Positions 2,480 to 28,990 of a DNA stretch of 36,529 bases are shown here, piece by piece. The stretch's first letter is position 1. Each line of letters opens with the position of its first letter. Origin of the DNA: Anaerolineae bacterium. GTDB lineage: Bacteria; Chloroflexota; Anaerolineae; Aggregatilineales; Phototrophicaceae. A program made the translations under genes and the position numbers. Where the stretch lies: assembly GCA_016788625.1 (NCBI GenBank), contig JAEUQX010000212.1:1-36529 (forward strand). The letters run 5' to 3'. Under the pieces are notes generated by a model. It was not told the origin of the DNA. It saw nothing but the letters and a program-made list of their open reading frames with translations, and ran no database searches.

Positions 2480-2578
2480 TAGGCAGAGTGGTGTAATTTG
2501 TAGACATGCGTGTCCGTTTCGGGTTTCATAAGGACAGCACGGACGCGGTGAACGAGTTGTCAAACGATGGAGACGCTG

Positions 2579-10224: not shown

Positions 10225-11208
10225 ATGCAGACTGATTTGCGGGGGCGCGACTCAATTGCCCCGGAACTGGAATGGACGCGCGATGAGATCGACACGCTGC
10301 TCGATGTGGCGTGGGACTTGAAGCGCAAACGCGCGGTGGGCGAATCCCATGCCTATCTGCGCGATAAGGTCTTGGGCTTGCTGTTCTTCTTCACCAGCAC
10401 ACGCACCCGCGCCAGCTTTGAGGCGGGCATGGCGCAGCTCGGCGGGCACGCCATGTTCATCGACAGCGAAACGACCCAGATTTCGCACGGCGATACCGCG
10501 AAGGAAATCGGCGAGATCATCGGTCGCTACACCGACGGCATCGCCATCCGTCAGTGTGACTGGAACTTTGGCAATCGTTACATCCGCGAAGTGGCCGAGG
10601 CCAGCCGCGTGCCTGTGCTGAACATGCAGTGCGATGTCTTCCACCCGTTCCAGATTCTCGCGGATATGATGACCATTCAGGAGAAGTTTGGGCGCGATCT
10701 GCGTGGCAAGACCATCAACGTCAGCTACGCCTATGCCAGCAGTTACCAGAAGCCGCTGAGCGTGCCGCAGAGCCTGATCCTGCTGATGACGCGCTATGGC
10801 ATGAATGTGCGCCTGACACATCCGCCGGAATTCGGCCTGATGCCGGATATTGTCGAGCAGTCGCGCGAGAACGCCCGCAAGAGCGGCGGCTCGTTCGAGG
10901 TGCTGCACGATTTTGACGAAGGCTTCAAGGGCGCGGACATTGTGTATCCCAAGAGCTGGGGCTGCTGGATGACGACCGAAGACAAGAACGAGTCGTCGTT
11001 GATCGGCAAGAAATACACGGACTGGATTACGGATAGCCGCCGCATGGCGCTGGCGAACCCCGATGCGGTGTATATGCACTGCCTGCCCGCTGACCGCAAC
11101 ATCGAAGTCACCGACGAGGTGATCGACGGCCCGCAGAGCATCGTTTACGACGAGGCTGAAAATCGCCTGCATGTGCAGAAAGCGGCGATGGCGCTGACGA
11201 TGCGTTAA
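10225..11208 (+). CDS. ygeW: YgeW-type knotted carbamoyltransferase
   Basis: The product belongs to the aspartate/ornithine carbamoyltransferase superfamily. It has the carbamoyl-phosphate loop STRTR (58-62), HPFQ (140-143, where HPxQ is usual) and HCLPADR (285-291). The inserted YASSYQ/KPLSVPQSL segment and the GCWMTTEDKN region match the knotted YgeW group. In catabolism such an enzyme would work backwards, phosphorolysing a carbamoyl (ureido) compound to carbamoyl phosphate, which carbamate kinase encoded next door can turn into ATP. AAGGAG stands nine bases before the ATG. A terminator-like hairpin follows the gene. Subgroup identity is confident; the true substrate is not visible. Confidence 0.92.
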   Translation: MQTDLRGRDSIAPELEWTRDEIDTLLDVAWDLKRKRAVGESHAYLRDKVLGLLFFFTSTRTRASFEAGMAQLGGHAMFIDSETTQISHGDTAKEIGEIIGRYTDGIAIRQCDWNFGNRYIREVAEASRVPVLNMQCDVFHPFQILADMMTIQEKFGRDLRGKTINVSYAYASSYQKPLSVPQSLILLMTRYGMNVRLTHPPEFGLMPDIVEQSRENARKSGGSFEVLHDFDEGFKGADIVYPKSWGCWMTTEDKNESSLIGKKYTDWITDSRRMALANPDAVYMHCLPADRNIEVTDEVIDGPQSIVYDEAENRLHVQKAAMALTMR

Positions 11209-11381: not shown

Positions 11382-12329
11382 ATGATCGAAAAACTTGCGA
11401 TTGTCGCGATTGGCGGCAACTCTTTGATCGAAGATCCCAAGCAGCCCGGCATCGCCCGCCAGTGGGATGCCGCGCGCAAGACCTGCGAACATATCGCCAA
11501 TATGGTCACGAGCGGTTGGCACGTCGTCGTAACCCATGGCAACGGCCCGCAGGTCGGCTACATCCTGCGGCGCGGCGAGATCGCCTCCAAAGAGGGCATT
11601 CATGATGTCCCGCTCGACCTGATCGTTGCCGATACCCAGGGCAGCATCGGTTACATGCTCCAGCAGGGGTTAGATGATGCTCTGCGGCGGCGTGGCTTCA
11701 ATCGCACATGCGCGACGGTCATCACCCAGGTGCGCGTGGACGCCGATGACCCGGCCTTTGCGCGTCCGACCAAACCTATTGGCGGCTTCATGAGCGAAGC
11801 AGAAGCGCGTAAGTTCGAGGCTGAAGGTTGGCAGGTGATGGAGGACTCCGGTCGTGGTTGGCGTCGTGTGGTGGCGTCACCGATCCCGCGCAGCATCGTC
11901 GAGATCAATGCGATACAGGCGCTCATGCTCAGCGGCTACACGGTGATTGCGTGTGGCGGCGGCGGTATCCCGGTTGTGCGCCAGCCTGATGGCAGTTTGC
12001 AAGGCGTATACAGCGTCATCGATAAAGACCGGTGCAGCGCGCTGCTGGCGTTGACACTGCGTGCTGATCTGCTGATGATCTCGACTGGCGTGGAGAAGGT
12101 GGCACTGAACTTCGGCAAGCCCGATCAGCGCGAACTCGACCGCCTCGAATTATCCGACGCCAAGCAGTATATGGCTGAAGGCCATTTTGGCGTGGGCAGT
12201 ATGCTGCCGAAAGTTGAAGCGGCAATCGACTTTGTACAGAACGGCGGCCCGCGCGCCATCATCACCAACCCGGAGAACCTGGAGCGTGCGTTGCAAGGGG
12301 AAACGGGTACGCACGTCGTGCCGGGGTAG
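11382..12329 (+). CDS. arcC: Carbamate kinase
   Basis: Transfers phosphate from carbamoyl phosphate to ADP, giving ATP, ammonia and CO2. The 315-residue product has the amino-acid-kinase fold with AIGGNSL at the N-terminus (residues 12-18), VVTHGNGPQVG (about 48-58), the KPIGGFMS region, ACGGGGIPV and the DKD of the nucleotide site. AGGATAA precedes the ATG. It follows the knotted carbamoyltransferase gene, the same pairing as ygeW with yqeA in E. coli. Together they would be the ATP-yielding end of purine degradation. Confidence 0.95.
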   Translation: MIEKLAIVAIGGNSLIEDPKQPGIARQWDAARKTCEHIANMVTSGWHVVVTHGNGPQVGYILRRGEIASKEGIHDVPLDLIVADTQGSIGYMLQQGLDDALRRRGFNRTCATVITQVRVDADDPAFARPTKPIGGFMSEAEARKFEAEGWQVMEDSGRGWRRVVASPIPRSIVEINAIQALMLSGYTVIACGGGGIPVVRQPDGSLQGVYSVIDKDRCSALLALTLRADLLMISTGVEKVALNFGKPDQRELDRLELSDAKQYMAEGHFGVGSMLPKVEAAIDFVQNGGPRAIITNPENLERALQGETGTHVVPG

Positions 12330-12825: not shown

Positions 12826-14070
12826 ATGGCCGTTATTCTTGAACTGCGCTGCCCGCTCTGTGATCGCCGCTTCAGCCCGGACGCGGTAGCCTACACTTGC
12901 CCGTCCTGTGGGGAAGTCGGCACGCTCGATGTTCTCTACGACTATGAACAGCTTAAGGCGCAACTCGACCGGGACGCGCTGCGTAATCGACGTATGCAAT
13001 CGATGTGGCGCTACCGCGAACTGCTGCCCCTCCTGCCGGATTCCTCTGTGCCGCCGCTGGACGTAGGCATGACCCCGCTGTATGAAGCCAAACGACTGGC
13101 GGAGAATCTCGGTGTGCGGCAGGCCTGGGTCAAAGATGACGGACAGAACCCGACTGGCTCGTTGAAAGATCGGGCGAGCGCGTTGATCGTCGCGCGTGCG
13201 CTGGAGCAGGGTATCAGCACCGTCAGCACGGCCAGCACGGGCAACGCGGCGGCAGCGCTGGCGGGGTTAGGCGCGTCGGTCGGTATGAACATCATCATCT
13301 TCGTTCCGGCGGCAGCGCCAGAGGCCAAGATCGCGCAACTCCTGGTCTATGGCGCGACCGTGCTACTGGTCGAAGATACCTACGATGTGGCCTTTGACCT
13401 GTGCTACCAGATGTGCGTGAGCGAGGGCTGGTACTGCCGCAATACCGCCATGAACCCGTACACGACCGAAGGCAAAAAGACCGTCGCTTATGAGATTGCC
13501 GAGCAGTTGGATTGGCAGGTGCCGGATGTCGTGTTGGTCAGCGTGGGTGATGGCAACATCATCGCGGGCGTCTACAAAGGTTTTTACGACTTGTACCAAC
13601 TCGGCTGGATAGAGCGGATTCCGCGCCTGATTGGTGTACAAGCAGATGGAAGCGCTGCGCTGCTGCACGCCTGGCAGCGCGGCCTGAGTGCTGCGGAGAT
13701 GCGCCCGATAGACGCACAAACAGTAGCCGACAGCATCTCGGCGGGACTCCCGCGTGACCGGGCGAAAGCGCTGCGTGCCGTGTGGGAGACCCAAGGCGCT
13801 TATGTAGGTGTGTCCGATACGGAGATCGTCGCCGCCATCCCGCAGTTGGCGCGGCTGACCGGGGTTTTCGCTGAGCCTGCTGCCTCTGCGGTTTATGCAG
13901 GAGCAAGGCACGCTGTGCTATCAAATGTGATAGAATCAAACGAGTCGGTACTGTTACTGGTTACCGGTAATGGCCTGAAAGATGTGAAACGTGCCCAACA
14001 GTCGGTGGCAAGTGGACTGCGCGTACAGCCGACGTTGGAATCTGTTCGTTTAGCGCTGCAAAACATGTGA
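12826..14070 (+). CDS. Threonine synthase-like PLP enzyme
   Basis: The 414-residue fold-type-II PLP enzyme starts with a zinc-ribbon-like CPLC...CPSC motif (residues about 10-28). The PLP lysine is Lys114 in GSLKDRAS, and the phosphate-binding STGNAAAA block and the DGN loop follow. This is the threonine synthase architecture, but no hom or thrB lies nearby. The E. coli equivalent region carries ygeX, a PLP 2,3-diaminopropionate ammonia-lyase of the same fold. The protein may therefore be a housekeeping threonine synthase, or a beta-eliminating lyase serving the purine pathway. The annotation is safe at fold level only. Confidence 0.85.
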   Translation: MAVILELRCPLCDRRFSPDAVAYTCPSCGEVGTLDVLYDYEQLKAQLDRDALRNRRMQSMWRYRELLPLLPDSSVPPLDVGMTPLYEAKRLAENLGVRQAWVKDDGQNPTGSLKDRASALIVARALEQGISTVSTASTGNAAAALAGLGASVGMNIIIFVPAAAPEAKIAQLLVYGATVLLVEDTYDVAFDLCYQMCVSEGWYCRNTAMNPYTTEGKKTVAYEIAEQLDWQVPDVVLVSVGDGNIIAGVYKGFYDLYQLGWIERIPRLIGVQADGSAALLHAWQRGLSAAEMRPIDAQTVADSISAGLPRDRAKALRAVWETQGAYVGVSDTEIVAAIPQLARLTGVFAEPAASAVYAGARHAVLSNVIESNESVLLLVTGNGLKDVKRAQQSVASGLRVQPTLESVRLALQNM

Positions 14071-15349: not shown

Positions 15350-16738
15350 TTGATCACCGGCCCAACCTTTGAAGAGATGCTGCATCCGCAGCGTATTGCT
15401 GCATCCATTCGCCAGCAGGCGCAGCGCGCACGGGTAGAGAATCCGCTCGACCCGATCAACCTGTTCAATATCACCTGGCGTGATGCGAGCGACCAGATTT
15501 ACCATGTCGTTCTCCCCAAAGAACTGACCGGGGTCGATACCCCAATCGTTGTTATTTACGGCAAAGAATTTCCATCGGGCAGTCACAAGGTGGGCGCGGC
15601 CTATTCTGTTCTGCTTGAAATGGAACTGTTCGGAGAAGTTGATCCGGCGCAGCATACGCTGGTTTGGCCTTCGACGGGCAATTACGGCATCGGGGGCGCG
15701 TGGGTCGGCGGACGCATGGGCTGCCGCAGCCTGGTCGTGCTTCCCGCTGGAATGAGTCGTGAGCGCTTCGAGCGCATCGAAAGCTATGGCGCGCAGGTCA
15801 TCAAGACCTTTGGCTCGGAAAGCAACGTCAAGGAAATCTACGACGAAACCCATCGTCTGCGCGCCAGTGACCCCAACATCCGTATCCTCAATCAGTTCGA
15901 GGTGATGGGTAACTACCGCTTCCACTACCATGTGACCGGCAATACCATCGCCGAACTGGCGACCGAACTGCATCGTAACGGGGTAGGGCAGGGCAAGATT
16001 TCGGCCTATGTCTCTGCGATGGGCAGCGCGGGCACGATTGCGGCGGGTGATCGTCTGAAGCAAATCTGGCCCGATCATAAGATCGTCGGCCTTGAACCTA
16101 TTCAGTGCCCGACGCTTTACAACAACGGTTATGGTTCGCACGATATTCAGGGCATCGGCGATAAGCATGTCACCTGGATTCACAACGTCCTGAACATGGA
16201 TGCGATGATGTGCATTGATGACCTGGAATGCAAGAAGGCGCTCCAGGTCTTGGCGGAAGAGCGCAGCCGGGAAACCCTCGTTCAGCGTTACAAGCTCGAC
16301 CCACAGTTGGTTGAGCAGTTCAGCACGTTGTTCGGTATTAGCGGCATGTGCAATATCCTTGGCGCGATCAAGACGGCGCGTTACTACAACTTCACCGCCG
16401 ATGATGTGATCGTCACCGTCGCGACCGATGCGCTCGACCGCTACTACTCCGTTATGGACAGCATGGCCGAGTGTTACGGCACGCTCGATGAAGCGGCCAC
16501 CGTTGGGCGCGTCGAGGGCATTTTCAAAGGGATGCGTACCGACTGGATTCTGCCCGGTACGCCGGACAACCGCCAGCGCTGGCACAATCTGAAGTACTAC
16601 ACCTGGGTTGAACAGCAGGGCAAGGCCGTGGAAGAACTAGATGCCCAGCGCGACCCGCAATGGTGGGTTGAACACCAGCAGCGTGTGCAGGAAATCGACT
16701 CTCGTTTGGCAGCGCTGCGGGAGACAGAACGGACATAG
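15350..16738 (+). CDS. PLP-dependent lyase-like protein (tryptophan synthase beta superfamily)
   Basis: The 462-residue fold-type-II PLP enzyme has its likely PLP lysine at Lys80 in SGSHKVGAA, the STGNYG phosphate-anchoring loop, and a GSAGTIAAGD block. It is longer than cysteine synthase and differs from YgeX, but belongs to a group often labelled PLP-dependent protein beta subunit. A lyase here could release ammonia and pyruvate-type carbon from a ring-opened purine product. TTG 15350 is chosen as start because GGAG stands eight bases upstream; the next in-frame ATG (15377) lacks a comparable site. Its true substrate is unknown. Confidence 0.85.
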   Translation: MITGPTFEEMLHPQRIAASIRQQAQRARVENPLDPINLFNITWRDASDQIYHVVLPKELTGVDTPIVVIYGKEFPSGSHKVGAAYSVLLEMELFGEVDPAQHTLVWPSTGNYGIGGAWVGGRMGCRSLVVLPAGMSRERFERIESYGAQVIKTFGSESNVKEIYDETHRLRASDPNIRILNQFEVMGNYRFHYHVTGNTIAELATELHRNGVGQGKISAYVSAMGSAGTIAAGDRLKQIWPDHKIVGLEPIQCPTLYNNGYGSHDIQGIGDKHVTWIHNVLNMDAMMCIDDLECKKALQVLAEERSRETLVQRYKLDPQLVEQFSTLFGISGMCNILGAIKTARYYNFTADDVIVTVATDALDRYYSVMDSMAECYGTLDEAATVGRVEGIFKGMRTDWILPGTPDNRQRWHNLKYYTWVEQQGKAVEELDAQRDPQWWVEHQQRVQEIDSRLAALRETERT

Positions 16739-17423: not shown

Positions 17424-18761
17424 GTGCTGATTACCAACGCGACACTGGTCACCTGGGGTGAACCCTGTCGCATCCTCAATAATTACGCCATTTACATTGT
17501 GGATGATCGCATCGCGGCTGTTGCGCCGACCGCTGAGCTGAGCGCGCAGTATCCGCAGGGCGAGCGTCTGGACGCTCGCGGGCAACTGGTGATGCCGGGC
17601 AATATATGCGCGCATACCCACTTCTATGGTGCATACGCGCGCGGTATGGCGATACCGGGGCCAGCGCCGGAGAACTTCCCGCAAATTCTGGAGCGCTTGT
17701 GGTGGCCGCTCGATAAGGCGCTCGATAAAGACACCGTGCGCATGAGCGCGCTCGTCTCTCTTGTGGATGCCGTCAAGCATGGCACGACGACGCTGATCGA
17801 CCATCATGCCAGCCCGAATTGTATTGAGGGCAGTCTGGACGTGATCGCTGATGTGGTCGATTGGGCGGGTCTGCGCGCGGTGCTGTGTTACGAAGTCACC
17901 GATCGCGATGGCGACGAGAAGATGCACGCAGGGATTGCCGAAAACCTGCGCTTCATGCAGCAGAGCGAACATCCGCTAATTGCCGGGACATTCGGGCTGC
18001 ACGCCAGTCTGACGTTGAGCGACGCAGCGCTGCGAGCCTGCGCGGATGCTGCGCCATCGGAGGCCGGTTTTCATATCCATGTGGCTGAGCATGAGGCTGA
18101 CGAGGAAGACAGCCTGAAGCGTAGCGGCAAGCGCGTGGTGCAGCGTCTGAATGAGTATGGCATTCTGCGTGATAAGACTATCGCGGCTCACTGCGTCCAT
18201 ATTGATGACCAGGAGCGCCACTTGCTGCGCGAAAAGGGTGTGTGGGTCACGCATCAGCCACGTTCGAACATGAATAACGCGGTTGGCGCGATGGCCTTCG
18301 ATACGATGTTCGACGAAGGGCTGCGCCTCTGCCTGGGCAATGATGGCTTCAGCAACAACATGTGGGCGGAGTGGAAAGCGGCCTATCTGCTGCACAAAGT
18401 TGTCAGCCGGGATCCACGTAAGGCCAATGGCGCGGCGGTGGCACGGGTCGCAGCGTACAATAACGCGCGACTTGTGGAACGTTTCTTCCCCGGCACGAGG
18501 CTTGGTGAAATCAGCGTTGGCGCTGCTGCTGACTTGATTGTCGTCGATTACCATCCTTTTACGCCGCTGACCGATGGCAACCTGCCCTGGCACATCCTGT
18601 TCGGCTTCGAGTCGTCAATGGTGACGACGACGATTGTCGCGGGCAATGTGTTGATGCGTGATCGCCAGCTTCTGACGTTGGATGAGGCCGAGATTGCCAA
18701 AGAAGCGCGTGCCCTTGCGCCGAAAGTCTGGGAACGTTACGCTGCAAATGTTAAACAGTAG
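17424..18761 (+). CDS. ssnA: SsnA-type aminohydrolase
   Basis: The 445-residue amidohydrolase belongs to the SsnA group, which in E. coli lies between ygfK and ygfM and is tied to urate breakdown. Metal and catalytic residues are visible: HTH (64-66), the HIH of GFHIHVAEHE (217-219), His256 in AAHCVH, and Asp307 in GNDGF. The QPRSNMNN block is typical of the group. The start is GTG 17424, 10 bases after the previous stop, with GAGTGA just upstream. The reaction is probably hydrolysis or deamination of a reduced or opened purine. A paralogue in the same superfamily, 8-oxoguanine deaminase, is encoded at 3780. Confidence 0.9.
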   Translation: MLITNATLVTWGEPCRILNNYAIYIVDDRIAAVAPTAELSAQYPQGERLDARGQLVMPGNICAHTHFYGAYARGMAIPGPAPENFPQILERLWWPLDKALDKDTVRMSALVSLVDAVKHGTTTLIDHHASPNCIEGSLDVIADVVDWAGLRAVLCYEVTDRDGDEKMHAGIAENLRFMQQSEHPLIAGTFGLHASLTLSDAALRACADAAPSEAGFHIHVAEHEADEEDSLKRSGKRVVQRLNEYGILRDKTIAAHCVHIDDQERHLLREKGVWVTHQPRSNMNNAVGAMAFDTMFDEGLRLCLGNDGFSNNMWAEWKAAYLLHKVVSRDPRKANGAAVARVAAYNNARLVERFFPGTRLGEISVGAAADLIVVDYHPFTPLTDGNLPWHILFGFESSMVTTTIVAGNVLMRDRQLLTLDEAEIAKEARALAPKVWERYAANVKQ

Positions 18762-18788
18762 CACCATTACACGATTGGGGATATGTTG

Positions 18789-19448
18789 ATGTCTGAAACG
18801 TTGAAGATTGCCGTGCTGGGTGGCACGGGCAAGGAAGGCTCCGGCCTGGCGCAGCGCTGGATTGCCAAAGGTTACCCGGTCATCATCGGTTCGCGCGACG
18901 CTGAAAAAGCGATTGCCAAAGCCGCGGAAATGAACGCGCAGTTAAACGTGCAGACCGTTACGGGTATGGCGAATTCGGATGCTGCCTTGCACGCTGATGT
19001 TGTCGTGTTGAGCGTGCCGTACAGCGCCCACAAACTGACGCTGGAAGGGGTGAAAGATCAGGTACAGGGCAAAATCCTGGTTGACATCACGGTGCCGCTG
19101 CAACCGCCGAAGGTGCGAACGGTGCATGTGCCGGAGGGCAAAGCCGCCTCGCTCGAAGCGCAGGCGCTGTTGGGAGAGGGCGTCAAGGTCGTCTGTGCGT
19201 TCCAGAATGTCAGCGCTGAACACCTGAGTGATCCGCATCATGTGGTTGATTGTGATGTGCTGGTGTGTGGCAACGATGCCGACGCTAAGGCGACCGTCAT
19301 TAAGCTGGTCGAAGCCACCGGGATGCGCGGTGTGGACGCGGGTTCGTTGGCGAATGCTGTTGCCGTGGAAGCGCTGACGCCAGTGCTGCTCTACATCAAC
19401 AAAGCATACAGCGTCAAAGGTTCCGGTATTCGTATCACCGGCATCTAA
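18789..19448 (+). CDS. npdG: F420-dependent NADP reductase (NpdG-like)
   Basis: Moves hydride between NADPH and coenzyme F420. The 219-residue product has the Rossmann NADP motif GGTGKEGSG (11-19), GSRD at the end of the second strand for the 2'-phosphate, and the VVVLSVPY and DITVPL segments typical of the family. An in-frame ATG exists at 18783, but GGGG at 18777-18780 lies only two bases before it and eight before ATG 18789, so the latter is chosen. It heads a six-gene F420 module inside the purine island, after the ssnA-type gene by 27 bases. Confidence 0.92.
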   Translation: MSETLKIAVLGGTGKEGSGLAQRWIAKGYPVIIGSRDAEKAIAKAAEMNAQLNVQTVTGMANSDAALHADVVVLSVPYSAHKLTLEGVKDQVQGKILVDITVPLQPPKVRTVHVPEGKAASLEAQALLGEGVKVVCAFQNVSAEHLSDPHHVVDCDVLVCGNDADAKATVIKLVEATGMRGVDAGSLANAVAVEALTPVLLYINKAYSVKGSGIRITGI

Positions 19449-19453
19449 GCACT

Positions 19454-20224
19454 TTGAACACGACGACCGCCTCGATTACGATCACCGCGCTGCCTGGCAT
19501 TCCACTCATCCAATCCGGTGACGATCTCGCCCAGATCATTCTGGAGGCTTTGGCGCGCGCCAATCTGGCGCTGCAAGACGGCGATGCGCTGGTGATCACG
19601 TCAAAGATTATCTCGAAAGCTGAAGGCCGCCTGGTTGATCTCGAGACAGTAGCGCCGGGCGAACGCGCGCGCGAACTGGCGGATGCCACCCGCAAAGACC
19701 CGCGCATTGTGGAACTGGTTCTGCAAGAGAGCCGCATGATATCGCGACAGTCCCCAGGTGTGTTGGTGACGCAACACCGCCTGGGTTTTATCAGTGCCAA
19801 CGCGGGTATCGACCAATCCAACGTTGACGGCAGCGAGCATATGGTTTTGCTGCTGCCGCTCGACCCGGATGCATCCGCCGCACGGATTCGCGCTCGATTG
19901 CGTGAGCTAACGGGCGCTGAAGTCGGTATTGTTGTCAGCGATTCACATGGCAGACCATTCCGTATGGGCAATGTTGGCACAGCTATCGGCGTTGCCGGGA
20001 TGCCCGCTTTGCTCGATCTGCGCGGCAAGCCCGATCTGTTCGGGCGCGAACTCAAAATCAGTATTCAGGGGTATGCCGATCTGGTCGCATCTGCCGCCAA
20101 TCTGCTGACGGGGGAGGCTGACGAAGGCCGCCCGGTGGTACTGGTGCGCGGGTTGCAGTTCACGGCTCAGGATGGTCGCGCTTCTGATCTCGTTCGATCG
20201 CCCGAACAAGATTTGTATCGCTGA
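19454..20224 (+). CDS. cofE: Coenzyme F420-0:L-glutamate ligase
   Basis: Adds glutamates to F420-0 using GTP. The 256-residue product matches the CofE fold: the LPGIPLIQSGDDL start, VITSKIISKAEGR, the HRLGFISANAGIDQSN metal/nucleotide region (about 107-122), and VVSDSHGRPFRMG. The start is TTG 19454, five bases after the npdG stop; no clear ribosome-binding site is seen, so coupling with npdG is likely. In Actinobacteria this domain is the N-terminal half of FbiB; here the partner half is a separate gene nine bases downstream. Confidence 0.93.
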   Translation: MNTTTASITITALPGIPLIQSGDDLAQIILEALARANLALQDGDALVITSKIISKAEGRLVDLETVAPGERARELADATRKDPRIVELVLQESRMISRQSPGVLVTQHRLGFISANAGIDQSNVDGSEHMVLLLPLDPDASAARIRARLRELTGAEVGIVVSDSHGRPFRMGNVGTAIGVAGMPALLDLRGKPDLFGRELKISIQGYADLVASAANLLTGEADEGRPVVLVRGLQFTAQDGRASDLVRSPEQDLYR

Positions 20225-20233
20225 GGATGACTG

Positions 20234-20851
20234 GTGATGATTGACTCGGAACAGCAGAACGACATCCTGCGGGTGGTGATCGAGCGCCGTTCGATACGAC
20301 GTTATCGCCCGGAGGCAATTGCGCGTTCGCTCATCGAGCACATTCTCACTGCTGCAATGTGGGCGCCGTCTGCGCATAACCGTCAACCCTGGCGTTTCGC
20401 CGTCGTTCAGGGCGAGCAGAGGCTTTGTTTGGCACAGGCGATGGGCACACGCTTACGTCATGACCTCGCTGCTGATGGGGTGGACGCGAACGTGATTGAA
20501 GCCGACGCGGCGCGTTCGTACAGCCGTATGACAGCCGCCCCGGTACTGATTGTCCTGTGCCTGTCGATGGTCGACATGGATCATTATCCTGATGAACGCC
20601 GCAACCGAGCGGAATATCTGATGGCTGCACAGAGTACCGCGATGGCCGGGCAGAATTTGCTGCTGGTCGCGCATAGTGTCGGATTAGCGGCCTGCTGGAT
20701 GTGTGCGCCGCTGTTCTGTCCAGAGGTTGTGACTGATGTTCTTGCGCTGCCGGAGGATTGGCAGCCACAGGCGTTGATTACTCTGGGTTATCCCGCTGAA
20801 ACGCGCGAAAAGTCGCGCAAACCTCTAGAATCGAGTGTGATCTGGCGATGA
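20234..20851 (+). CDS. FbiB C-terminal-type nitroreductase (probable dehydro-F420 reductase)
   Basis: The 205-residue flavoprotein has the nitroreductase-family pattern: RRSIRRY near the N-terminus, WAPSAHNRQPWRF (about 39-51), the AAQSTAMAGQNLLL helix and the CWMCAPLFC segment. These closely match the C-terminal domain of mycobacterial FbiB, which reduces the dehydro-F420-0 intermediate with FMN. The position immediately after cofE supports a split FbiB. That would imply the PEP-based route to F420, in which CofC uses phosphoenolpyruvate. The end overlaps cofD by four bases (ATGA). A general nitroreductase role is possible but less likely in this context. Confidence 0.87.
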   Translation: MMIDSEQQNDILRVVIERRSIRRYRPEAIARSLIEHILTAAMWAPSAHNRQPWRFAVVQGEQRLCLAQAMGTRLRHDLAADGVDANVIEADAARSYSRMTAAPVLIVLCLSMVDMDHYPDERRNRAEYLMAAQSTAMAGQNLLLVAHSVGLAACWMCAPLFCPEVVTDVLALPEDWQPQALITLGYPAETREKSRKPLESSVIWR

Positions 20852-21774
20852 ATGTTGTCGTTCTCGTTGGTGGAGTTGGCGGCGCGAAGCTGGCCTATGG
20901 GCTGGCACAAGTGCTGCCGCCGGAAAAACTGACGGTAATCGTTAACACCGGCGACGATTTCTGGCGTTATGGTCTGCGGATTTGCCCTGACCTGGATACG
21001 ATCATGTATACGCTCTCCGGTCTGGTTGATCCGGTCAATGGCTGGGGGATTGCCGGGGACACGCTGAACGCACTGCAACAACTGCGCGCCTATGGCGAAG
21101 ATGACTGGTTCCGCCTGGGTGATCGCGATCTTGCTACCCATATCCTGCGAACTCGCCTCCTGCACGCGGGAGTCCCATTCACGGAAGTGACGGAGCGATT
21201 GACAAAAAGCCTGGGAATTTCTCAGCGCATATTGCCAATGACAGACGCGCCAGTTGCGACGATGATTGAGACGATGGAATATGGCGAGATCGAATTCCAG
21301 GAATACTTCGTTCGACATCGCTGGCAGCCAACAGTCAAGGCGCTGCGGTTGGAGGGCATTGACAAAGCGGTTCTGACGCCTGCCGTCGACCAGGCTTTGA
21401 AGGTGGCGGATGCCATCCTGATCGGTCCCTCGAATCCCTGGTTGTCGATAGAACCCATTCTGGCGGTGTCGGGTATGCGTGACGCGATTATGAAGCGTGA
21501 TGTGCCGCGCGTCGCCGTTTCACCCATCGTTGGCGGGCAAGCGATCAAAGGCCCCGCTGCCAAGATGATGGCCGAGCTGGGTTACCCCGTTTCTGCGGCC
21601 AGTGTCGCGGCCTATTATGGTGATATGCTGAATGGGTTTGTCTATGATCAAATGGATGCGGGACTACTTGTGCCACAGCCGCACGTGCTGAATTGTGAAA
21701 CCGTCATGAATACTACAAATGATAAGGTTCTACTGGCCCGAACTGTGCTAGATTGGATAAAGGGGTGGAGTTAG
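20848..21774 (+). CDS. cofD: 2-phospho-L-lactate (or PEP) transferase
   Basis: Joins the activated three-carbon unit to the deazaflavin Fo. The 308-residue product has the CofD signature: GGVGGAKLAYGL (8-19), the NTGDDFWRYGLRICPDLDT block (about 33-51), the GPSNPWLSI motif and SPIVGGQAIKGPAAKMM (about 221-237). Translation is coupled to the nitroreductase gene through an ATGA overlap. Fo synthase genes (cofG/cofH) are not in the window, so Fo must be made from genes elsewhere. Confidence 0.95.
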   Translation: MNVVVLVGGVGGAKLAYGLAQVLPPEKLTVIVNTGDDFWRYGLRICPDLDTIMYTLSGLVDPVNGWGIAGDTLNALQQLRAYGEDDWFRLGDRDLATHILRTRLLHAGVPFTEVTERLTKSLGISQRILPMTDAPVATMIETMEYGEIEFQEYFVRHRWQPTVKALRLEGIDKAVLTPAVDQALKVADAILIGPSNPWLSIEPILAVSGMRDAIMKRDVPRVAVSPIVGGQAIKGPAAKMMAELGYPVSAASVAAYYGDMLNGFVYDQMDAGLLVPQPHVLNCETVMNTTNDKVLLARTVLDWIKGWS

Positions 21775-21861
21775 TTCTATCCACTCATCAGCATCGATTG
21801 ATCTTGCAGGAAGAATTAGATTGGCGTGTCGTGCAGGTAACACGGACGCTGAGGAGAATCT

Positions 21862-22479
21862 ATGAGCATCTGGGTGATCATTCCGGTGAAGCCTCTGAAT
21901 CGCGCGAAGAGCCGTTTGTCGGGAGTGCTTAGCCCGGCGGAACGCCAGCAGTTGGCCGAAAAGATGTTTAGGGGTGTGCTGGAGGTCGTCCGTACCGTTC
22001 CACAAGTTTTGGGGACGCTGGTCATCAGCCGTGATGGCCGCGCGTTAGCTATTGCCCGCGACTATGGCGCGCGCACAGTGCAGGAGAGCGGCAACCCGGA
22101 GTTGAATGCGGCCTTGATGCGCGCTACCCAGGTGGTTGCCCGTTGGCATGGCAGCGCGGTGCTGATCCTTCCGGCGGATCTGCCTCTGCTGGCCGGGGAA
22201 GACATCACCGGTATGATCGAAATGGCAGGGCACGGGGAGCGTTCGGTCGTGATCGCTACCGACCAGCACCAGGATGGCACCAACGCCATGCTTGTCCGTC
22301 CGCCAGGGCTGATCGAATATGCTTATGGGCACGGCAGTTACCAGCGCCACGTTGATCTGGCGCGGCTTGCGGGAGCGACTGTCCAGACTTTTCATTCGCC
22401 GCGTGTTTCACTGGATATAGACGTGCCAGATGATTTAAAATCCTACCATGAGCTGATCGGAGGCTACGAGCTTTCATAG
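21862..22479 (+). CDS. cofC: 2-phospho-L-lactate / PEP guanylyltransferase
   Basis: Activates phospholactate or phosphoenolpyruvate with GTP for CofD. The 205-residue product has the nucleotidyltransferase pattern: IPVKPLNRAKSRLSGVLS (7-24), ILPADLPLL and DGTNAMLVRPP. GAGGAGAA precedes the ATG. An 87-base gap separates it from cofD, one of the larger gaps in the island, but no convincing promoter is visible in it. With a stand-alone FbiB-type reductase nearby, the PEP-using variant (FbiD-like) is the more likely one; this is inference. Confidence 0.92.
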   Translation: MSIWVIIPVKPLNRAKSRLSGVLSPAERQQLAEKMFRGVLEVVRTVPQVLGTLVISRDGRALAIARDYGARTVQESGNPELNAALMRATQVVARWHGSAVLILPADLPLLAGEDITGMIEMAGHGERSVVIATDQHQDGTNAMLVRPPGLIEYAYGHGSYQRHVDLARLAGATVQTFHSPRVSLDIDVPDDLKSYHELIGGYELS

Positions 22480-22530
22480 ATTTCACGCTGCGTAGCCCGA
22501 TCCTTATTGTAGTATATATTGGGGGACAAA

Positions 22531-23538
22531 ATGGCTGATCGGGTCGCGCTTTATTTGCAGGATGCCCATTCACTTCAGGACGCGATTAAATACGTCCAGT
22601 ATGCTGAGTCGCGGGGTTTTGAGGCGGTCTGGCAGGCCGAGAGCCGCCTCGTGCGTGATGCGATTGTGCCTATGGCCGCTTTTGCTGCCACGACCACGCG
22701 CATCAAGATCGGCTCCGGCGTCATCAACAACTGGACGCGCAACGCTGCGGTGATCGCGGCGACCTTTCTCACGCTGGACGACCTTGCCCCGGATCGTATT
22801 ATCTGCGGTATCGGTGCATGGTGGGATCCACTCGCGCAGAAGGTTGGCATCAACCGCAGCAAACCGCTGCTCGCGATGCGCGAGGTTGTCACAGTAGTAC
22901 GTTCACTCCTGGCGCGCGAGCGTGTGACCTTTCACGGCGAGTTCGTCAACCTGGATGATGTCGAACTGGATGTCGTGCACGGCCGCAAAGAAGCGCGTAA
23001 TGTGCCGATCTATATTGGCGCGACCGGCCCGAAGATGATGGCACTGACGGGCGAAATCGCTGATGGCGCGGTGCTGAACTATCTGGTCTCGCCGCAGTAC
23101 AACAAAGGTGCTATCGAGCAGCTTGAAGAAGGCGCGAAGCAGGCCGGACGCAGCATGGATGAGATTGACCGCCCGCAGTTGGTGGTCTGTTCGGTGGATG
23201 AAGACCGCAAGCGGGCGCTGGATGCCGCGCGCAAGCTCGTAACGCAGTACCTCGGCCAGCAGCCGCACATCATGAAGGCCAGCGGCGTCAAGCAGGAACT
23301 GCTGGATGAAATCGGGCAGGTGCTCACCTGGCCTGCCACCGAAGAACAGATCGAAGAAGCTATGAAGCTCGTGCCTGATGACGTGGTGCAGATGATCACG
23401 GCGTCCGGCACGCCCAAGGAAGTGCGCGCGAAGGTGCGCGAGTACGTTCAGCATGGCGCGACGTGCCCGATTCTCTACCCGCTGGGGCCGGATGTGCGCC
23501 TGATGATTGATACCTTCTCTGATGGTTATTCAGACTAA
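22531..23538 (+). CDS. Luciferase-like F420-dependent oxidoreductase (Mer-like)
   Basis: The 335-residue TIM-barrel flavin/F420 oxidoreductase has the [21 protein letters not shown] region, IKIGSGV, a GIGAWWDP loop and the [12 protein letters not shown] block. This pattern is typical of the LLM class that uses F420 rather than FMN, such as methylene-tetrahydromethanopterin reductase relatives. GGGGG lies five bases before ATG 22531; TTG 22519 is an alternative start. Placed right after F420 biosynthesis and inside a purine island, it is the best candidate for an F420H2-dependent reductive step, replacing the YgfK-type reductase of other clusters. Its substrate is not known. Confidence 0.88.
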
Positions 23539-23568: not shown

Positions 23569-26058
23569 ATGATTGGGCAGGGCGTCTTCAACGGACGCCT
23601 GCTTTTTGTCTGGGTGCTGTGCTGTCTGGCCGCGGGTGGAACGCTGCTGGCTTATGCGAGTGCCAGTCTGGCGGCGGGGCGCGGCGCGTTCACCATGCCG
23701 CTGGATGACGTGTACATCCACTTTCAGTATGCCCGCCAGATCGCGGTGGGGCAGCCATATGTCTATAACCCCGGCTTGCCACCCAGCTCCGGCGCGACCA
23801 GCCTGCTGTATCCCTGGCTATTGGCCCTTCTGCATGTCGCTGGTTTTCAGGGGCTGAATCTGGGGCTGGGGGCGCTGCTGCTGGGCATGGCTGCTTTTGC
23901 CACGTCGATTTGGGTCGTGTATGCCCTGGGCTACGCGCTCAGCCAGAGCCGCGCTGCTGCCGGACTGACGGCGGCATTGTTTGCGCTGAACGGCCCGCTG
24001 GCCTGGCATTACATGAGCGGCATGGAGACCGGGTTGGTCGTGTTGTTTACCCTGGCGACGCTGTACTTCGCAGTGCTGCGTCGTGCACGGGCGTTCATCA
24101 TCTGCGGCGTTATGCTCACGCTGCTGCGGCCAGAAGGGTTTTTCCTGCCCGGTGCGCTCGCGGTTGCGATGTTTTGGCAAGGCTGGCGAATGCGTCCGAG
24201 CCGTTTGTCCGTCGCACGAACGCTGCCGCTGTTCATACCGGTTCTGGCACTTCTGGTGCAGCCGCTGCTCAACCTCGCGCTGACCGGTTCCACAGTCGCA
24301 TCTGGCAATGCCGCCAAGTCGATCTTCGGCAGCGTGCCTTTTGTGCTGAGCGAAGCGCTGCGGCGAATTGTGGAAAATAGCGCCCGGATGTGGCTGGAGC
24401 TGCTGAGTGGGTACAGTCTGCGAGAAGGTTGGTATCTGCTGCCGCTGTTCGGCCTGATGGGGATTATTGCCCTTGCTGGTCTGCTGCTCCGCCGTGAATG
24501 GCGTGCTTACGTGTTGGCCTGTCTGTTGTGGCTGTTGGCGAGCACGTTGGCCGTCGCGACGCTGGAAACCGCGTTCTGGCATTTCAAGCGCTACCAGATG
24601 CCGTTCATGGCACTGGTTTTTCCCTTTGTCGCATGGGCGATTGCTCGGCTGCGCCTGCCGCGTCGGATTGCGGCAGGGGCGGCGGCGTTGGTGATGATCA
24701 TTACCTTGTGGGGCGCGTGGCGATTTTTTGACCATTATCTCCTGAACGTGGGCTATGTTTACCAACAACCTATGCAGATGGCGCGCTGGCTGCAAATCAA
24801 CACGCCCCCTGGTGCTGTCGTTGCTGTACATGACACCGGGCTGCTGCGTTACCTGGGTGGGCGCACCACTATCGATATGGTTGGGCTGACCACTCCTGGC
24901 GCGGCAGCATCGTGGCGCAGCGGACCCGGCGCGGTTGCCGAGTACCTGATGCAGCAGCGCCCCGACTACATCGCTTCGTATGGCGAAGGACATGGTTTTG
25001 GGCTGGGGATGCTGGCCGCTACCCGGCTTTATGGTCAGCCGCTGGCCTCTTTCCCCGTTGAATTGGACGCATCTTACAACGTCGCGCTGGCGGCGGATTT
25101 CCAGGGCATCTACCAACCGGATTGGACAGCCCTCCGAGCAGGGCGTGACACGCTGCACACGAGTTTGCTGCCCTATGTGGAAGGCGCACCGTTGGCCGTA
25201 TTGAATGTCGCTGATCTCACTGCCGAGGTGCAGGCAGAATACACTTGGTCAGATAATAACCCCTGGCCGGGTTTCCCGACCGAAGTGCATGAATGGGGCT
25301 ATCCTGGCTGCTCATCGGCAGATTGCCTGATTACGGATGGTGGCCGCAGCATCACGGGTGAAGAACGCTTCACGCTGCATATTGACCCGCTGGCTGCTGG
25401 AGAAGAGGGTCTGCTTCTGGTGACGCGCGTTCATGCGCAGTTTCCGGGGGCAATAGCGGTCTATGTCAATGATGTTGCTATCGGTACGCGCTGGATTCCG
25501 CAGATACCTGGTCGATGGCTCGACATTCCGACGTTCATTCCGCCTGAGCTGGTGTCAGATGCGATGTCATTCCGTGTCGAGCCGAGTCTTACCGACGGTG
25601 CGTATCAACCGTATCGCCACGCACTCTACTCGTTTCGCAGCACGCGTGAAGCACTCGCTGCTGAGCCGCTGGCGGTCTTTCAGAGCGGAGCGTTCGCATT
25701 GGCCGATGCCGTTGTGGAGTACCGCGCTATGGAGCTGCAAGTTGTGGTTGACCTCAGTTGGCAGACGCAGGGTCTTGCACGGGGTGACTTCAAGGTGTTT
25801 GTGCATTTTTACGCTGATCCTGGACAACCGCCCATCGCGCAGGCGGACGCTTATCCCGGCGGGGGGACACTGCCGCCGCAGAATTGGCCGCCGGGCGTGC
25901 TTCATGACACAATTGTGGTAGACTTGGCGACAATAGCAGCGGGTCAGTATCAGGTAGCGGTGGGCTTTTATGACCCTGCTACTGGTGAGCGCATCGTGAT
26001 TGATGATGGAGATCCGTCCGGTCGTGTGTGGATTGGAGACATAGAGGTCGAACGATGA
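23569..26058 (+). CDS. GT-C-type membrane protein with a long extracytoplasmic C-terminus
   Basis: The product is about 829 residues. The first half holds about ten hydrophobic helices and a loop motif PLDDVYIHFQYAR after the first helix (acidic pair near residues 46-47), which is the hallmark of GT-C glycosyltransferases that take sugars from polyprenyl phosphates. From about residue 400 onward the protein is soluble, including a beta-rich tail. Possible starts are ATG 23569, GTG 23557 and TTG 23542; none has a clear ribosome-binding site. The xdhC stop/start overlap (ATGA) ties it to the next gene. Its role in a purine island is unclear. The GT2 encoded at 14077 could supply its lipid-linked donor. 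Confidence 0.8.
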   Translation: MIGQGVFNGRLLFVWVLCCLAAGGTLLAYASASLAAGRGAFTMPLDDVYIHFQYARQIAVGQPYVYNPGLPPSSGATSLLYPWLLALLHVAGFQGLNLGLGALLLGMAAFATSIWVVYALGYALSQSRAAAGLTAALFALNGPLAWHYMSGMETGLVVLFTLATLYFAVLRRARAFIICGVMLTLLRPEGFFLPGALAVAMFWQGWRMRPSRLSVARTLPLFIPVLALLVQPLLNLALTGSTVASGNAAKSIFGSVPFVLSEALRRIVENSARMWLELLSGYSLREGWYLLPLFGLMGIIALAGLLLRREWRAYVLACLLWLLASTLAVATLETAFWHFKRYQMPFMALVFPFVAWAIARLRLPRRIAAGAAALVMIITLWGAWRFFDHYLLNVGYVYQQPMQMARWLQINTPPGAVVAVHDTGLLRYLGGRTTIDMVGLTTPGAAASWRSGPGAVAEYLMQQRPDYIASYGEGHGFGLGMLAATRLYGQPLASFPVELDASYNVALAADFQGIYQPDWTALRAGRDTLHTSLLPYVEGAPLAVLNVADLTAEVQAEYTWSDNNPWPGFPTEVHEWGYPGCSSADCLITDGGRSITGEERFTLHIDPLAAGEEGLLLVTRVHAQFPGAIAVYVNDVAIGTRWIPQIPGRWLDIPTFIPPELVSDAMSFRVEPSLTDGAYQPYRHALYSFRSTREALAAEPLAVFQSGAFALADAVVEYRAMELQVVVDLSWQTQGLARGDFKVFVHFYADPGQPPIAQADAYPGGGTLPPQNWPPGVLHDTIVVDLATIAAGQYQVAVGFYDPATGERIVIDDGDPSGRVWIGDIEVER

Positions 26059-26894
26059 GTGAAGATCGCGCCGTATTTGAAGCACTGCTTGATGCGCAAA
26101 CGCGGGGTGACGTGGCGGCGCTTGCCACTGTGGTGAGCGTGCAGGGGTCGGTGCCACGTCATGCGGGCAGCAAGATGCTGGTGCGGCGGGATGGCTCAAT
26201 CGTCGGCACGGTGGGCGGCGGCGCGATGGAGTCGCTGGTCATCAAGGAAGCACTTGATGCTATGCTCGACGGGCAGACGCGGATGCCCAGCTACACCCTC
26301 AACGATCTGTCATCGGGCGACCCCGGTATTTGTGGCGGTACGGTGCAGGTGTTCATCGAACCCATCGGCAGCGCGCCAACTGTGCTGGTGATCGGTATTG
26401 GGCATGTGGGCCGGGCGCTGGCGGAATTGGCGAAGTGGTCGGGCTATCGTGTCGTGATCTCGGATGATCGCGAAGCCTTTTGTAACCCCAACTACCTGCC
26501 AGGCATGGATGCTTATGTGGTCTGCAAACCGAGCGAAGTCGCCGGACAAACCGCGATCAATTCGCGCACGTTTGTCGCGGCAGTTACGCGTGGAATGCCT
26601 GTCGATATGGATCTGATCCCGTCGCTGCTCACGACCGATGCTGCCTATATCGGACTGATCGGCAGCCGGCGGCGCTGGATGCTGACGGCGAAGGCACTTA
26701 AGGATGAGCGTGGGTTGAGCGATGAGCAGTTGGCGCGCGTGTATGCGCCGATTGGCCTGGAACTCAACGCCGAGACGCCGCAGGAGATCGCCATCAGCAT
26801 CCTGGCACAGATCATCATGGTACAGCGCGGTGGCGACGGACGTGAAATGCGCATGGCGCGAGTAGCCGAGGTTGATGAACTAAAGCAGTCCTGA
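26055..26894 (+). CDS. xdhC: XdhC/CoxI-family molybdenum cofactor maturation factor
   Basis: XdhC proteins bind molybdenum cofactor, promote its sulfuration and load it into xanthine dehydrogenase-type enzymes. The 279-residue product has an N-terminal XdhC domain with SVPRHAGSKM (about residues 32-41), VGGGAMES, and a cysteine in DPGICGGTVQVF. A C-terminal Rossmann domain carries GIGHVGRALAEL, followed by LIGSRRR. The frame is open upstream to 26028, but ATG 26055 overlaps the preceding stop as ATGA and has GAGG seven bases before it. The hydroxylase subunits it would serve are encoded at 27560 and 31249. Confidence 0.93.
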   Translation: MSEDRAVFEALLDAQTRGDVAALATVVSVQGSVPRHAGSKMLVRRDGSIVGTVGGGAMESLVIKEALDAMLDGQTRMPSYTLNDLSSGDPGICGGTVQVFIEPIGSAPTVLVIGIGHVGRALAELAKWSGYRVVISDDREAFCNPNYLPGMDAYVVCKPSEVAGQTAINSRTFVAAVTRGMPVDMDLIPSLLTTDAAYIGLIGSRRRWMLTAKALKDERGLSDEQLARVYAPIGLELNAETPQEIAISILAQIIMVQRGGDGREMRMARVAEVDELKQS

Positions 26895-27559: not shown

Positions 27560-28990
27560 ATGTGGAAGCAGTATTACAGCGTCAGCAGCATCGGTGAAGC
27601 GCTCGAACTGCTGAGCCGGTTTCGGGAACGTGCCCGTATTATAGCTGGCGGGACGGACATCATTATTGAGTTAGAGCGGCATCAACGTCCCGGCGTTGAT
27701 GTTTTGATTGACATCACCCGTGTGCCTGGATTGGATCAGATCACGCAGCACGGGGATCAATTTCGCCTTGGCCCGTTGGTGACGCACAATCATGTCGTCG
27801 GCAATTCACTGCTGGTCGAGCGTGCGCTGCCGCTGGCGCAGGCGTGCTGGGAGGTTGGCGCGCCACAAATTCGTAATCGCGCGACGGTAGCAGGCAACCT
27901 GATCACGGCGTCCCCGGCGAATGACACCATTAGTCCGCTGATGGCGCTTGGCGCGGAGGTGACGCTGGCTTCACTGGAGGGTGAGCGCACTGTACCACTG
28001 TCCGGTTTTTATACGGGACTGCGAAAGACGGTCATGCGCCCTGACGAGATGCTGACCGCGATCACCTTCCCGGCACTGTCGCTCAGCGAACGTGGTATAT
28101 TCATCAAGCTCGGTTTGCGCCGTGCACAAGCTATTTCCGTGATCAATGTGGCTGTTGTGCTGGCCTTCGAGGGTGATGTGGTGTCGCGGGCGGCGATTGC
28201 GTTGGGCAGCGTCGCGCCGACGATCATTCGTGTTCCTGTCGCCGAGGCTGCACTGGTCGGGCAGCAGCTCAATGATGCCATCATTGTGGAAACAGCCCGT
28301 TTGGCCGCCGCGACACCTGAGCCGATAGATGATATTCGCGCGACAGCCGCTTATCGCACGGAGATGGTGCGTGTGCTGGTCGGCCGCGCGCTGCGGGCAC
28401 TGCGAGACGGCGAGCAGGCTGCGAACTGGCCGGACAATCCCGTAATGCTCTGGGGGGCAGATCAGGGACTCGTGAAGACGGGGCTTGCATCGCAGGTTGC
28501 TCACGAGGATAAACAGCCTATTGTGACGACCATCAACGGTCAGCCGGTCGAATTACACAGCGGGCACGACAAGACACTACTGCGCCTGCTGCGCGAAGAT
28601 GCGCAACTGCCGGGCACCAAGGAAGGCTGCGCGGAAGGGGAGTGTGGTGCGTGTACTGTGTATCTGGATGGTGTGGCGGTGATGGCGTGTATGGTGCCCG
28701 CGCCGCGCGCGCATGGTGCTGATATTGTCACCGTTGAGGGGTTGGAACAGGACGGGCGTTTGCACCCCATCCAACAGGGTTTCATCGACCAGGGCGCAGT
28801 GCAGTGTGGCTATTGTACCCCGGGGTTTCTGATGGCGGGCGCGAAGCTGCTGGAAGAATTCCCGGAGCCGACGTCCGCGCAGATACAGCAAAGCATCACC
28901 GGGAACCTGTGCCGCTGCACGGGCTACTACAAAATTATTCAGGCATTTGTCCAGGCTAGCAAAAGCAAATTGAGCGAGGAGGGGAATTGA
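27560..28990 (+). CDS. Molybdenum hydroxylase FAD subunit fused to the 2Fe-2S subunit
   Basis: The 476-residue fusion carries electron-transfer parts of a xanthine dehydrogenase-type enzyme. The FAD domain comes first (about 1-285) with AGGTDIII (29-36) and the [15 protein letters not shown] block. A 2Fe-2S domain follows (about 320-470). All eight cluster cysteines are present: 357, 362, 365 and 377 for the plant-type cluster, and 416, 419, 451 and 453 for the helical one. Classic xanthine dehydrogenase has 2Fe-2S before FAD, so the order here is reversed. E. coli uses a separate YgfM plus XdhD. The molybdenum subunit gene is separated from it by two unrelated-looking genes. Confidence 0.93.

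Follow-up and report, generated by a model that had tools for sequence, protein, structure and literature searches.

The reductive degradation of uric acid has been described for E. coli and C. difficile, and in the E. coli chemistry the reductive step takes place on yanthine, in which the 8-oxo group is argued to have dearomatised the imidazole ring already (PMC12507026). For SsnA clusters of Chloroflexota, Li et al. (2025) proposed a putative F420-dependent luciferase-family (PF00296) reductase in place of YgfK or UacX. The main text of that paper mentions F420 four times, always in connection with this reductase; it names no F420 biosynthesis genes and does not use the word 'archaea' (PMC12507026). 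The core idea of an F420-dependent reductase in Chloroflexota purine clusters is therefore a prediction that has already been published. The work reported here concerns an island of this kind in a stretch of 36,529 nucleotides (the window, contig JAEUQX010000212.1 of assembly GCA_016788625.1) from an Anaerolineae bacterium, where a gene for a luciferase-family protein, LLM, closes a run of F420 genes that lies between ssnA and the xanthine dehydrogenase-type (xdh) genes. Going by gene content and the comparisons below, the island probably encodes the reductive SsnA-type pathway of uric-acid/purine degradation in a form that depends on F420. New support comes from the co-occurrence of LLM and SsnA, cases of replacement, the divergence of LLM after loss of ssnA and the LLM clusters of haloarchaea.

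In the proposed mechanism NpdG would reduce F420 with NADPH, and LLM would pass a hydride from F420H2 to an aromatic purine, which may most likely be yanthine (2,8-dioxopurine); both the substrate and the direction of the reaction are presumed. LLM would fill the role of YgfK or UacX, with SsnA opening the ring right after the LLM step. The remaining breakdown would fall to YgeY, carbamate kinase, a YgeW-like carbamoyltransferase and one or two pyridoxal-phosphate (PLP) enzymes. CofC, CofD and CofE would build the F420 tail and probably have a wider use in the cell. An earlier note on this DNA had listed npdG, cofE, an FbiB-type nitroreductase, cofD, cofC and LLM after ssnA and before the xdh genes on one strand. 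This order is confirmed and the profile matches agree with it; the start of npdG is corrected (18783, not 18789) and the nitroreductase falls under the cut-off for the FbiB C-terminal model. The same note had seen no YgfK, and this holds for the genome, an assembly of 744 contigs that is 93.6% complete and in which the best match among all 31 candidates scored reached 39 bits against a cut-off of 835.

Co-occurrence of LLM with SsnA and its replacement by other reductases

Two samples of genomes were compared, 61 genomes of the window's order and 251 Chloroflexota genomes that were drawn evenly and are at least 90% complete. Most of the genomes are metagenome-assembled, so that the absence of a gene can be an assembly gap. 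An ssnA match (E<=1e-100) was obtained in 49 genomes of the order sample; 45 of these, and 3 of the 12 genomes that have no ssnA match, carry an LLM with 70% identity or more. Forty of the 49 ssnA loci were opened. The next recognised gene after ssnA is npdG in 34; three further loci have npdG and cofE at another place on the stretch, and in another three ssnA is the sole window gene. In 31 of the 40 the fetched stretch includes LLM. A similar picture was obtained from the best 80 of 583 LLM loci, the genomes of which partly overlap the order sample. Where there is room on the stretch, cofC lies within 400 bases of LLM in 55 of 75 loci and ssnA within 6.5 kb in 38 of 52, and 17 of the 80 loci have no purine genes on the stretch. 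Recurrent adjacency of the F420 and LLM genes with ssnA and purine genes, which the earlier note had put forward as a check, is thus found in related genomes.

For the phylum sample thresholds of E<=1e-90 for LLM and E<=1e-80 for SsnA were used, and scoring covered the best 8 (LLM), 6 (SsnA) and 3 (YgfK) candidates of each genome. LLM is present in 39 genomes, SsnA in 43 and both in 36 (Fisher p 6e-33, a value that is inflated as shared ancestry is ignored). Seven genomes have SsnA without LLM (G223, G263, G290, G299, G295, G064 and G237; the G295 locus was left out). In G223 a YgfK scores 1323 bits (cut-off 835) and is encoded some 110 kb away from ssnA. G263, G290 and G299 carry a UacX-like DHO_dh-type protein on the ssnA stretch (L152, L153 and L154), for which the Pfam domains DHO_dh and Fer4 were displayed in G263. 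As predicted proteins, these YgfK and UacX-like finds qualify the published statement that Chloroflexota are without YgfK and UacX. Among the three candidates scored per genome, a YgfK match covering the N-terminal part was found in none of the 36 genomes with both LLM and SsnA; the matches in two of them (G127 and G159) are limited to the NAD(P)-binding part. Three genomes have LLM with no SsnA at the threshold, G116 (LLM of 50% identity), G182 and G190, and in the latter two LLM adjoins carbamoyltransferase, carbamate kinase and xdh genes. Judged from these gene inventories, the mutual exclusion of LLM and YgfK or UacX is strong, not absolute.

Divergence of LLM after loss of ssnA

In the window's family, the block from npdG to LLM is kept at five loci (G018, G023, G028, G029 and G030) where ssnA is gone from its slot. 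No ssnA match better than E 1e-50 was found in the first four of these genomes; in G030 a separate contig carries another SsnA (41%), and a HyuA homologue adjoins a second LLM (76%). Since the ssnA-positive loci were picked for having ssnA, only the other genes are informative in the comparison. The cysteine-synthase-like gene is missing from the slot at all five ssnA-lost loci and present at 21 of 23 ssnA-positive loci, and its product is a candidate replacement for YgeX in the diaminopropionate lyase step. The gene for a 223-residue protein is still beside npdG at all five.

At the ssnA-lost loci LLM is 47-70% identical to that of the window, and the cof genes have not diverged likewise. The ratio of -ln identity for LLM to that for the cof genes is 0.83-1.37 at these five loci and 0.19-0.36 at 25 ssnA-positive loci of the same family, with no overlap. 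Altogether 39 loci went into this analysis. L049 and L065 were dropped as LLM is off the stretch, ssnA loci whose stretch lacks LLM were excluded, and G049, tagged as ssnA-minus only because ssnA lies beyond the stretch, was excluded from the counts; the LLM of G003 is split in two frames. The LLM reading frames are intact at all five ssnA-lost loci. In a tree of npdG, cofE, cofD, cofC and the neighbouring glycosyltransferase, well supported branches force four changes of ssnA state, which may most simply be read as losses. In the LLM tree the tips of the ssnA-lost copies measure 0.94-4.26, against a median of 0.11. For the sister pair G023 (ssnA-lost) and G019 the LLM tips are 1.19 and 0.12 and the cof tips 0.32 and 0.29; for G029 (ssnA-lost) and G022 they are 2.29 and 0.23, and 0.31 and 0.29. 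Because LLM and not the cof genes diverges where ssnA is lost, the constraint on LLM goes with SsnA and not with F420 synthesis. CofC, CofD and CofE probably serve the cell more widely, because they are kept at these loci. A housekeeping LLM of the F420 operon is disfavoured, since the divergence of LLM tracks ssnA and not the cof genes.

These loci also bear on the second proposal of the earlier note, that F420 accepts electrons from the molybdenum hydroxylase, in which case LLM would be an unrelated oxidoreductase. The xdh genes do lie downstream of LLM at many loci. However, the xdh subunit genes, which include the FAD/2Fe-2S subunit, are retained at all four ssnA-lost loci with room while LLM diverges, and the ssnA/xdh clusters that have a UacX-like gene show no LLM. 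The proposal finds no support and is extremely improbable.

The closest solved relatives of LLM and its best NCBIfam score point to Mer, and it could be asked whether LLM is Mer, or an F420-dependent methylene-tetrahydrofolate reductase of one-carbon metabolism, that is a passenger in an F420 operon. The predicted model (pLDDT 87) matches Mer 1z69 best, with a Z of 36.8, a root-mean-square deviation of 2.4 and 323 residues aligned, and below Mer and the F420 dehydrogenases the fold searches returned the usual luciferase superfamily. However, with the two Mer models (TIGR03555/PRK02271) LLM scores 197 bits against a cut-off of 349 and 200 against 276, and is thus under both. The catalytic Glu6 of Mer, of which the Glu6Gln variant keeps 0.4% of kcat (PMC11094777), would be replaced by Tyr12, as judged from where the fold alignment begins and from the residue numbering, which is shifted by a constant 6. 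By alignment Trp102 falls at Mer Asp96, a pterin/substrate contact, and Gln243 at Mer Phe233. It would also be unexpected for a one-carbon enzyme to diverge at each ssnA loss while its cof neighbours are unchanged. LLM as Mer was rejected on its scores and the replaced Glu6, and we give the one-carbon alternative almost no credence.

Returning to LLM as a purine reductase, its predicted cofactor is F420, and the Gly-Val of the Mer cis-peptide site is kept in sequence as G67-V68, which is invariant in 50 LLM sequences. Asn187 falls at position 178, which is named as Gln in the Mer paper (PMC11094777) and is Asn in the aligned PDB sequence. Across the 50 LLMs of this type, not all of which lie beside ssnA, 111 positions are invariant, and the ssnA-lost copies alter 13-38 of these. 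H17 and V153 are altered in all five, and A10, M52, A100, W102, W271, P272 and C316 in four of the five. The alignment to Mer would make W102 a substrate-contact residue.

Other LLM copies were looked at as well. Five of the other LLM genes in the window's genome have no cof or purine neighbours on the stretch, of up to 1.5 kb, that was covered on each side. LLM2 copies outside family f1 were considered as a second purine module and rejected, as the recognised neighbours at the two loci examined, L094 (seven) and L137 (three), give no context support; these are type II secretion, response-regulator, phosphoribosyltransferase, SIS-domain, GidA, pyridine-nucleotide-disulphide oxidoreductase and transglutaminase genes.

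Haloarchaeal clusters, substrate and cofactor supply

A tblastn search of plasmids returned LLM in 22 haloarchaeal records, some of them from the same or sister strains, with 62-64% identity in 15 and 48-50% in seven; six of the former and three of the latter were opened. All six 62-64% loci carry molybdenum hydroxylase genes, a Zn-dependent hydrolase, a gene annotated as D-aminoacylase, a threonine-synthase-like gene and two amidohydrolases. One of the H. marismortui amidohydrolases is allantoinase/HyuA-like and the other of the SsnA family (286 bits, cut-off 444); in the same cluster the Zn-dependent hydrolase is over the carbamoylase-family cut-offs and a xanthine permease is over its cut-off. 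NpdG is present in four of the six clusters (annotated in three and, in the fourth, detected at the edge with tblastn). A residue-by-residue comparison covered two haloarchaeal LLMs. Both keep Y12, H17, A100, W101, W102, V153, N187, Q243, H250, W271, P272, A273 and C316; A10 is altered in both and M52 in one. The haloarchaeal LLMs form their own clade in a tree that does not fix the order of the deeper clades. A different, oxidative route from urate to allantoin has been proposed for Haloferax volcanii in a 2021 review of haloarchaeal annotation, the available text of which makes no mention of a haloarchaeal purine cluster with LLM (PMC8305020).

The set of genes expected for reductive pyrimidine breakdown comprises a Zn-dependent hydrolase, an amidohydrolase, a transaminase and a methylmalonate-semialdehyde dehydrogenase. 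All three opened loci of the 48-50% LLMs (L278, L279 and L280) adjoin a Zn-dependent hydrolase, and two of the three also have amidohydrolase, transaminase and methylmalonate-semialdehyde dehydrogenase genes. It is possible that this LLM is an F420-dependent pyrimidine reductase.

Several observations weigh against the reading of the island as an F420-dependent purine pathway. Four genomes of the order sample (G036, G043, G050 and G053) have ssnA but no LLM that reaches 70% identity, and G040 and G048 carry an undiverged LLM (79% and 81%) with no ssnA match at E<=1e-60; ssnA is present in G053 and G058, which are genus-mates of G048. In family f7 LLM is located away from the cof genes. In the phylum sample no replacement reductase was found in G064 and G237, which have ssnA and no LLM. 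G182 and G190, which have LLM and no SsnA at the threshold, also have YgfK-like proteins, and in G190 the gene for this protein has an SsnA-like neighbour (33% identity to E. coli SsnA) on its contig. HyuA was not seen in the window; the window's genome has a homologue of 35% identity over most of the length (G000:C362). Among 29 genomes of the family with SsnA and LLM, 14 have no XdhD-type match at E<=1e-150, one of them (G024) being 99% complete in about ten contigs. Lastly, CofH is over its cut-off in none of the 61 genomes of the order, 43 of which have no match at E<=1e-70; CofG was not searched.

The XdhD result makes yanthine uncertain as the substrate. LLM could be an F420-dependent purine reductase of the SsnA pathway that acts on urate or xanthine, as the earlier note had it, with no need for an XdhD step. 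LLM (81-94% identity) and SsnA are kept in the 14 genomes in which no XdhD-type protein was found, and the molybdenum subunit of the window and three haloarchaeal ones are without the XdhD marker Glu606. However, the E. coli step takes place on yanthine (PMC12507026), XdhD-type genes that bear Glu606 lie within the same cluster in other families, and the xanthine dehydrogenase of the window might supply yanthine itself. Reductive dearomatisation through LLM is well supported in comparative terms by the co-occurrence, the replacement cases, the divergence after ssnA loss and the haloarchaeal clusters; urate or xanthine as its substrate is rather unlikely, and less likely than yanthine.

A second module was observed in the window's genome on contig C231 (L087, 1472-8999). 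It consists of an SsnA-like amidohydrolase, an XdhD-like Mo/Fe-S protein with Glu606, an FAD subunit, an LLM paralogue (50%) and a YgeY-like hydrolase. The paralogue keeps H17, A100, W102, W271, P272 and C316. Similar modules are found in G026 and, with no hydrolase on the stretch, in G021.

How is F420 made by these organisms? Most of the LLM loci that were opened in the order carry CofC, CofD and CofE. In a control the CofH search gave matches over the cut-off in 3 of 14 named genomes. The two matches in the window's genome are MqnE, over its cut-off, and an MqnC-like protein; queries with MqnE and MqnC over 271 loci matched only themselves and each other, and haloarchaeal CofH and CofG queries matched only the two Mqn proteins among the Chloroflexota loci. 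FO, the deazaflavin head, crosses membranes (PMC8498797), and because of this diffusion its uptake from neighbours is the simplest guess for the window's order. These CofH results have also been weighed as a sign that CofC, CofD and CofE add the F420 tail to another flavin head, which LLM would then use. However, a divergent FO synthase may escape a search for CofH alone, NpdG, CofD and CofE are over equivalog cut-offs, and scavenging of true FO is simpler; a non-canonical cofactor is quite improbable.

In a wider reading, the Mer-like LLM family would be a further, unrelated solution for reductive nucleobase dearomatisation in two domains, with SsnA-linked purine clades in Chloroflexota and haloarchaea and a pyrimidine clade at about 50% identity that neighbours a carbamoylase-type hydrolase on haloarchaeal plasmids, and the Anaerolineae order would build its F420 on the deazaflavin heads of neighbours, as CofC, CofD and CofE are present with no CofH found. 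This wider reading is put forward tentatively and is more doubtful than the pathway itself.

The window and its comparison with known systems

The features of the window are collected in the table. The window has one long run on the + strand with purine genes around the F420 module. From npdG to LLM (18783-23538) the intergenic gaps are 5-87 bases, with one 4-base overlap. LLM is separated from the xdh subunits by genes for an 838-residue protein with no Pfam match, an XdhC-family protein and a metallophosphoesterase. The carbamoyltransferase scores 202 bits with the YgeW model (cut-off 500). The cysteine-synthase-like protein scores 26 bits with the YgeX model TIGR03528 (cut-off 532), and YgeX is absent for the threonine-synthase-like protein among the matches listed (25 of 34 families). 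A short partial match to a Mutator-family transposase (2567-3046) was observed ahead of a ClpP-like gene.

Table. Positions of the features of the window and the basis of their assignment (bits are profile scores)
Feature	Position	Strand	Basis
8-oxoguanine deaminase	3780..5132	+	NF006055 727 bits, cut-off 532
Adenine deaminase	6045..7745	+	TIGR01178 623 bits, cut-off 472.5
YgeY-type M20 hydrolase	7828..9027	+	TIGR03526 471 bits, cut-off 321.5
YgeW-like carbamoyltransferase	10225..11208	+	37% identity to E. coli YgeW; listed carbamoyltransferase models all under cut-off
Carbamate kinase	11382..12329	+	TIGR00746 363 bits, cut-off 358
Threonine-synthase-like PLP enzyme	12826..14070	+	haloarchaeal clusters carry a 41-42% identical counterpart
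Cysteine-synthase-like PLP enzyme	15350..16738	+	PF00291
223-residue protein, no Pfam match	16742-17413		conserved; kept beside npdG at the five ssnA-lost loci
SsnA amidohydrolase	17424..18761	+	TIGR03314 496 bits, cut-off 455.5
NpdG, NADPH:F420 reductase	18783..19448	+	TIGR01915 213 bits, cut-off 150
CofE, F420-0 gamma-glutamyl ligase	19454..20224	+	TIGR01916 285 bits, cut-off 181
Nitroreductase-family protein, stand-alone, FbiB-C-terminal-like	20234..20851	+	PF00881; TIGR03553 136 bits, under cut-off 249.6
CofD, 2-phospho-L-lactate transferase	20848..21774	+	TIGR01819 332 bits, cut-off 257
CofC guanylyltransferase	21862..22479	+	TIGR03552 164 bits, cut-off 105
LLM reductase, proposed F420H2-dependent purine dearomatase	22519..23538	+	PF00296; fold match to Mer; comparative tests
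XdhC-family maturation factor	26028..26894	+	best models NF045664 and TIGR02964, both under cut-off
Xanthine dehydrogenase-type FAD + 2Fe-2S fused subunit	27560..28990	+	xdh models under cut-off
DUF6909 protein, between xdh subunits	29363-31117		many related loci carry one
Xanthine dehydrogenase-type Mo subunit without XdhD Glu606	31249..33480	+	xdh models under cut-off
YqeB, selenium-dependent molybdenum cofactor protein	33461..34309	+	TIGR03309 340 bits, cut-off 220
YqeC-MocA-type fusion	34287..35639	+	TIGR03172 145 bits, cut-off 73; TIGR03310 177 bits, cut-off 186

Why Chloroflexi make F420 is an unanswered question in the review of Grinter and Greening (2021, PMC8498797), and the importance of F420 in haloarchaea has been called enigmatic, with one F420-dependent reaction reported (PMC8305020). 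If the proposal is true, a purine reductase of catabolism would tell concretely what F420 is used for in both groups, and a deazaflavin enzyme would join YgfK and UacX. The presence of a related cluster in named Haloarcula strains opens the question to tests in culturable organisms. The conserved CofC/D/E module, for which no CofH was found (CofG was not part of the search), raises the question of cofactor sharing.

LLM shares with Mer (8qpl, 1z69) the predicted fold and the Gly-Val of the cis-peptide site of this F420-binding protein, but differs from it in the Tyr, Trp and Gln aligned with Glu6, Asp96 and Phe233 and in scoring under the Mer cut-offs. The haloarchaeal clusters (Haloarcula marismortui pNG700, H. 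hispanica pHH400, Haloterrigena) share with the window LLM, SsnA-family and HyuA/allantoinase-like amidohydrolases, molybdenum hydroxylases and a thrC-like PLP enzyme. They differ in that D-aminoacylase, of the class of C. difficile UacY, and a Zn-dependent carbamoylase stand for YgeW and YgeY. They also differ in their F420 genes, as cofC, cofD and cofE were not seen in the six opened and cofH together with cofG in one, Haloterrigena alkaliphila, where cofH is within the cluster and cofG nearby; Haladaptatus halobius has a cofH-like stretch of 57 residues.

With the reductive uric acid degradation of E. coli and C. difficile (PMC12507026) the window shares SsnA, YgeY, a YgeW-like protein, carbamate kinase, the xanthine dehydrogenase family and PLP enzymes. 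HyuA and XdhD were not seen in it, its PLP enzymes are not YgeX, and it adds the NpdG-CofE-CofD-CofC module and LLM in the place of YgfK or UacX. The role proposed for LLM is the same as that of PydA, UacX and YgfK, the reductive dearomatisation ahead of a ring-opening amidohydrolase. PydA and UacX belong to the DHODH-type flavoproteins and YgfK is an FMN/FAD iron-sulphur protein, the electrons of which come from NAD(P)H or probably ferredoxin (PMC12507026), whereas LLM is a TIM barrel that would take its hydride from F420H2.

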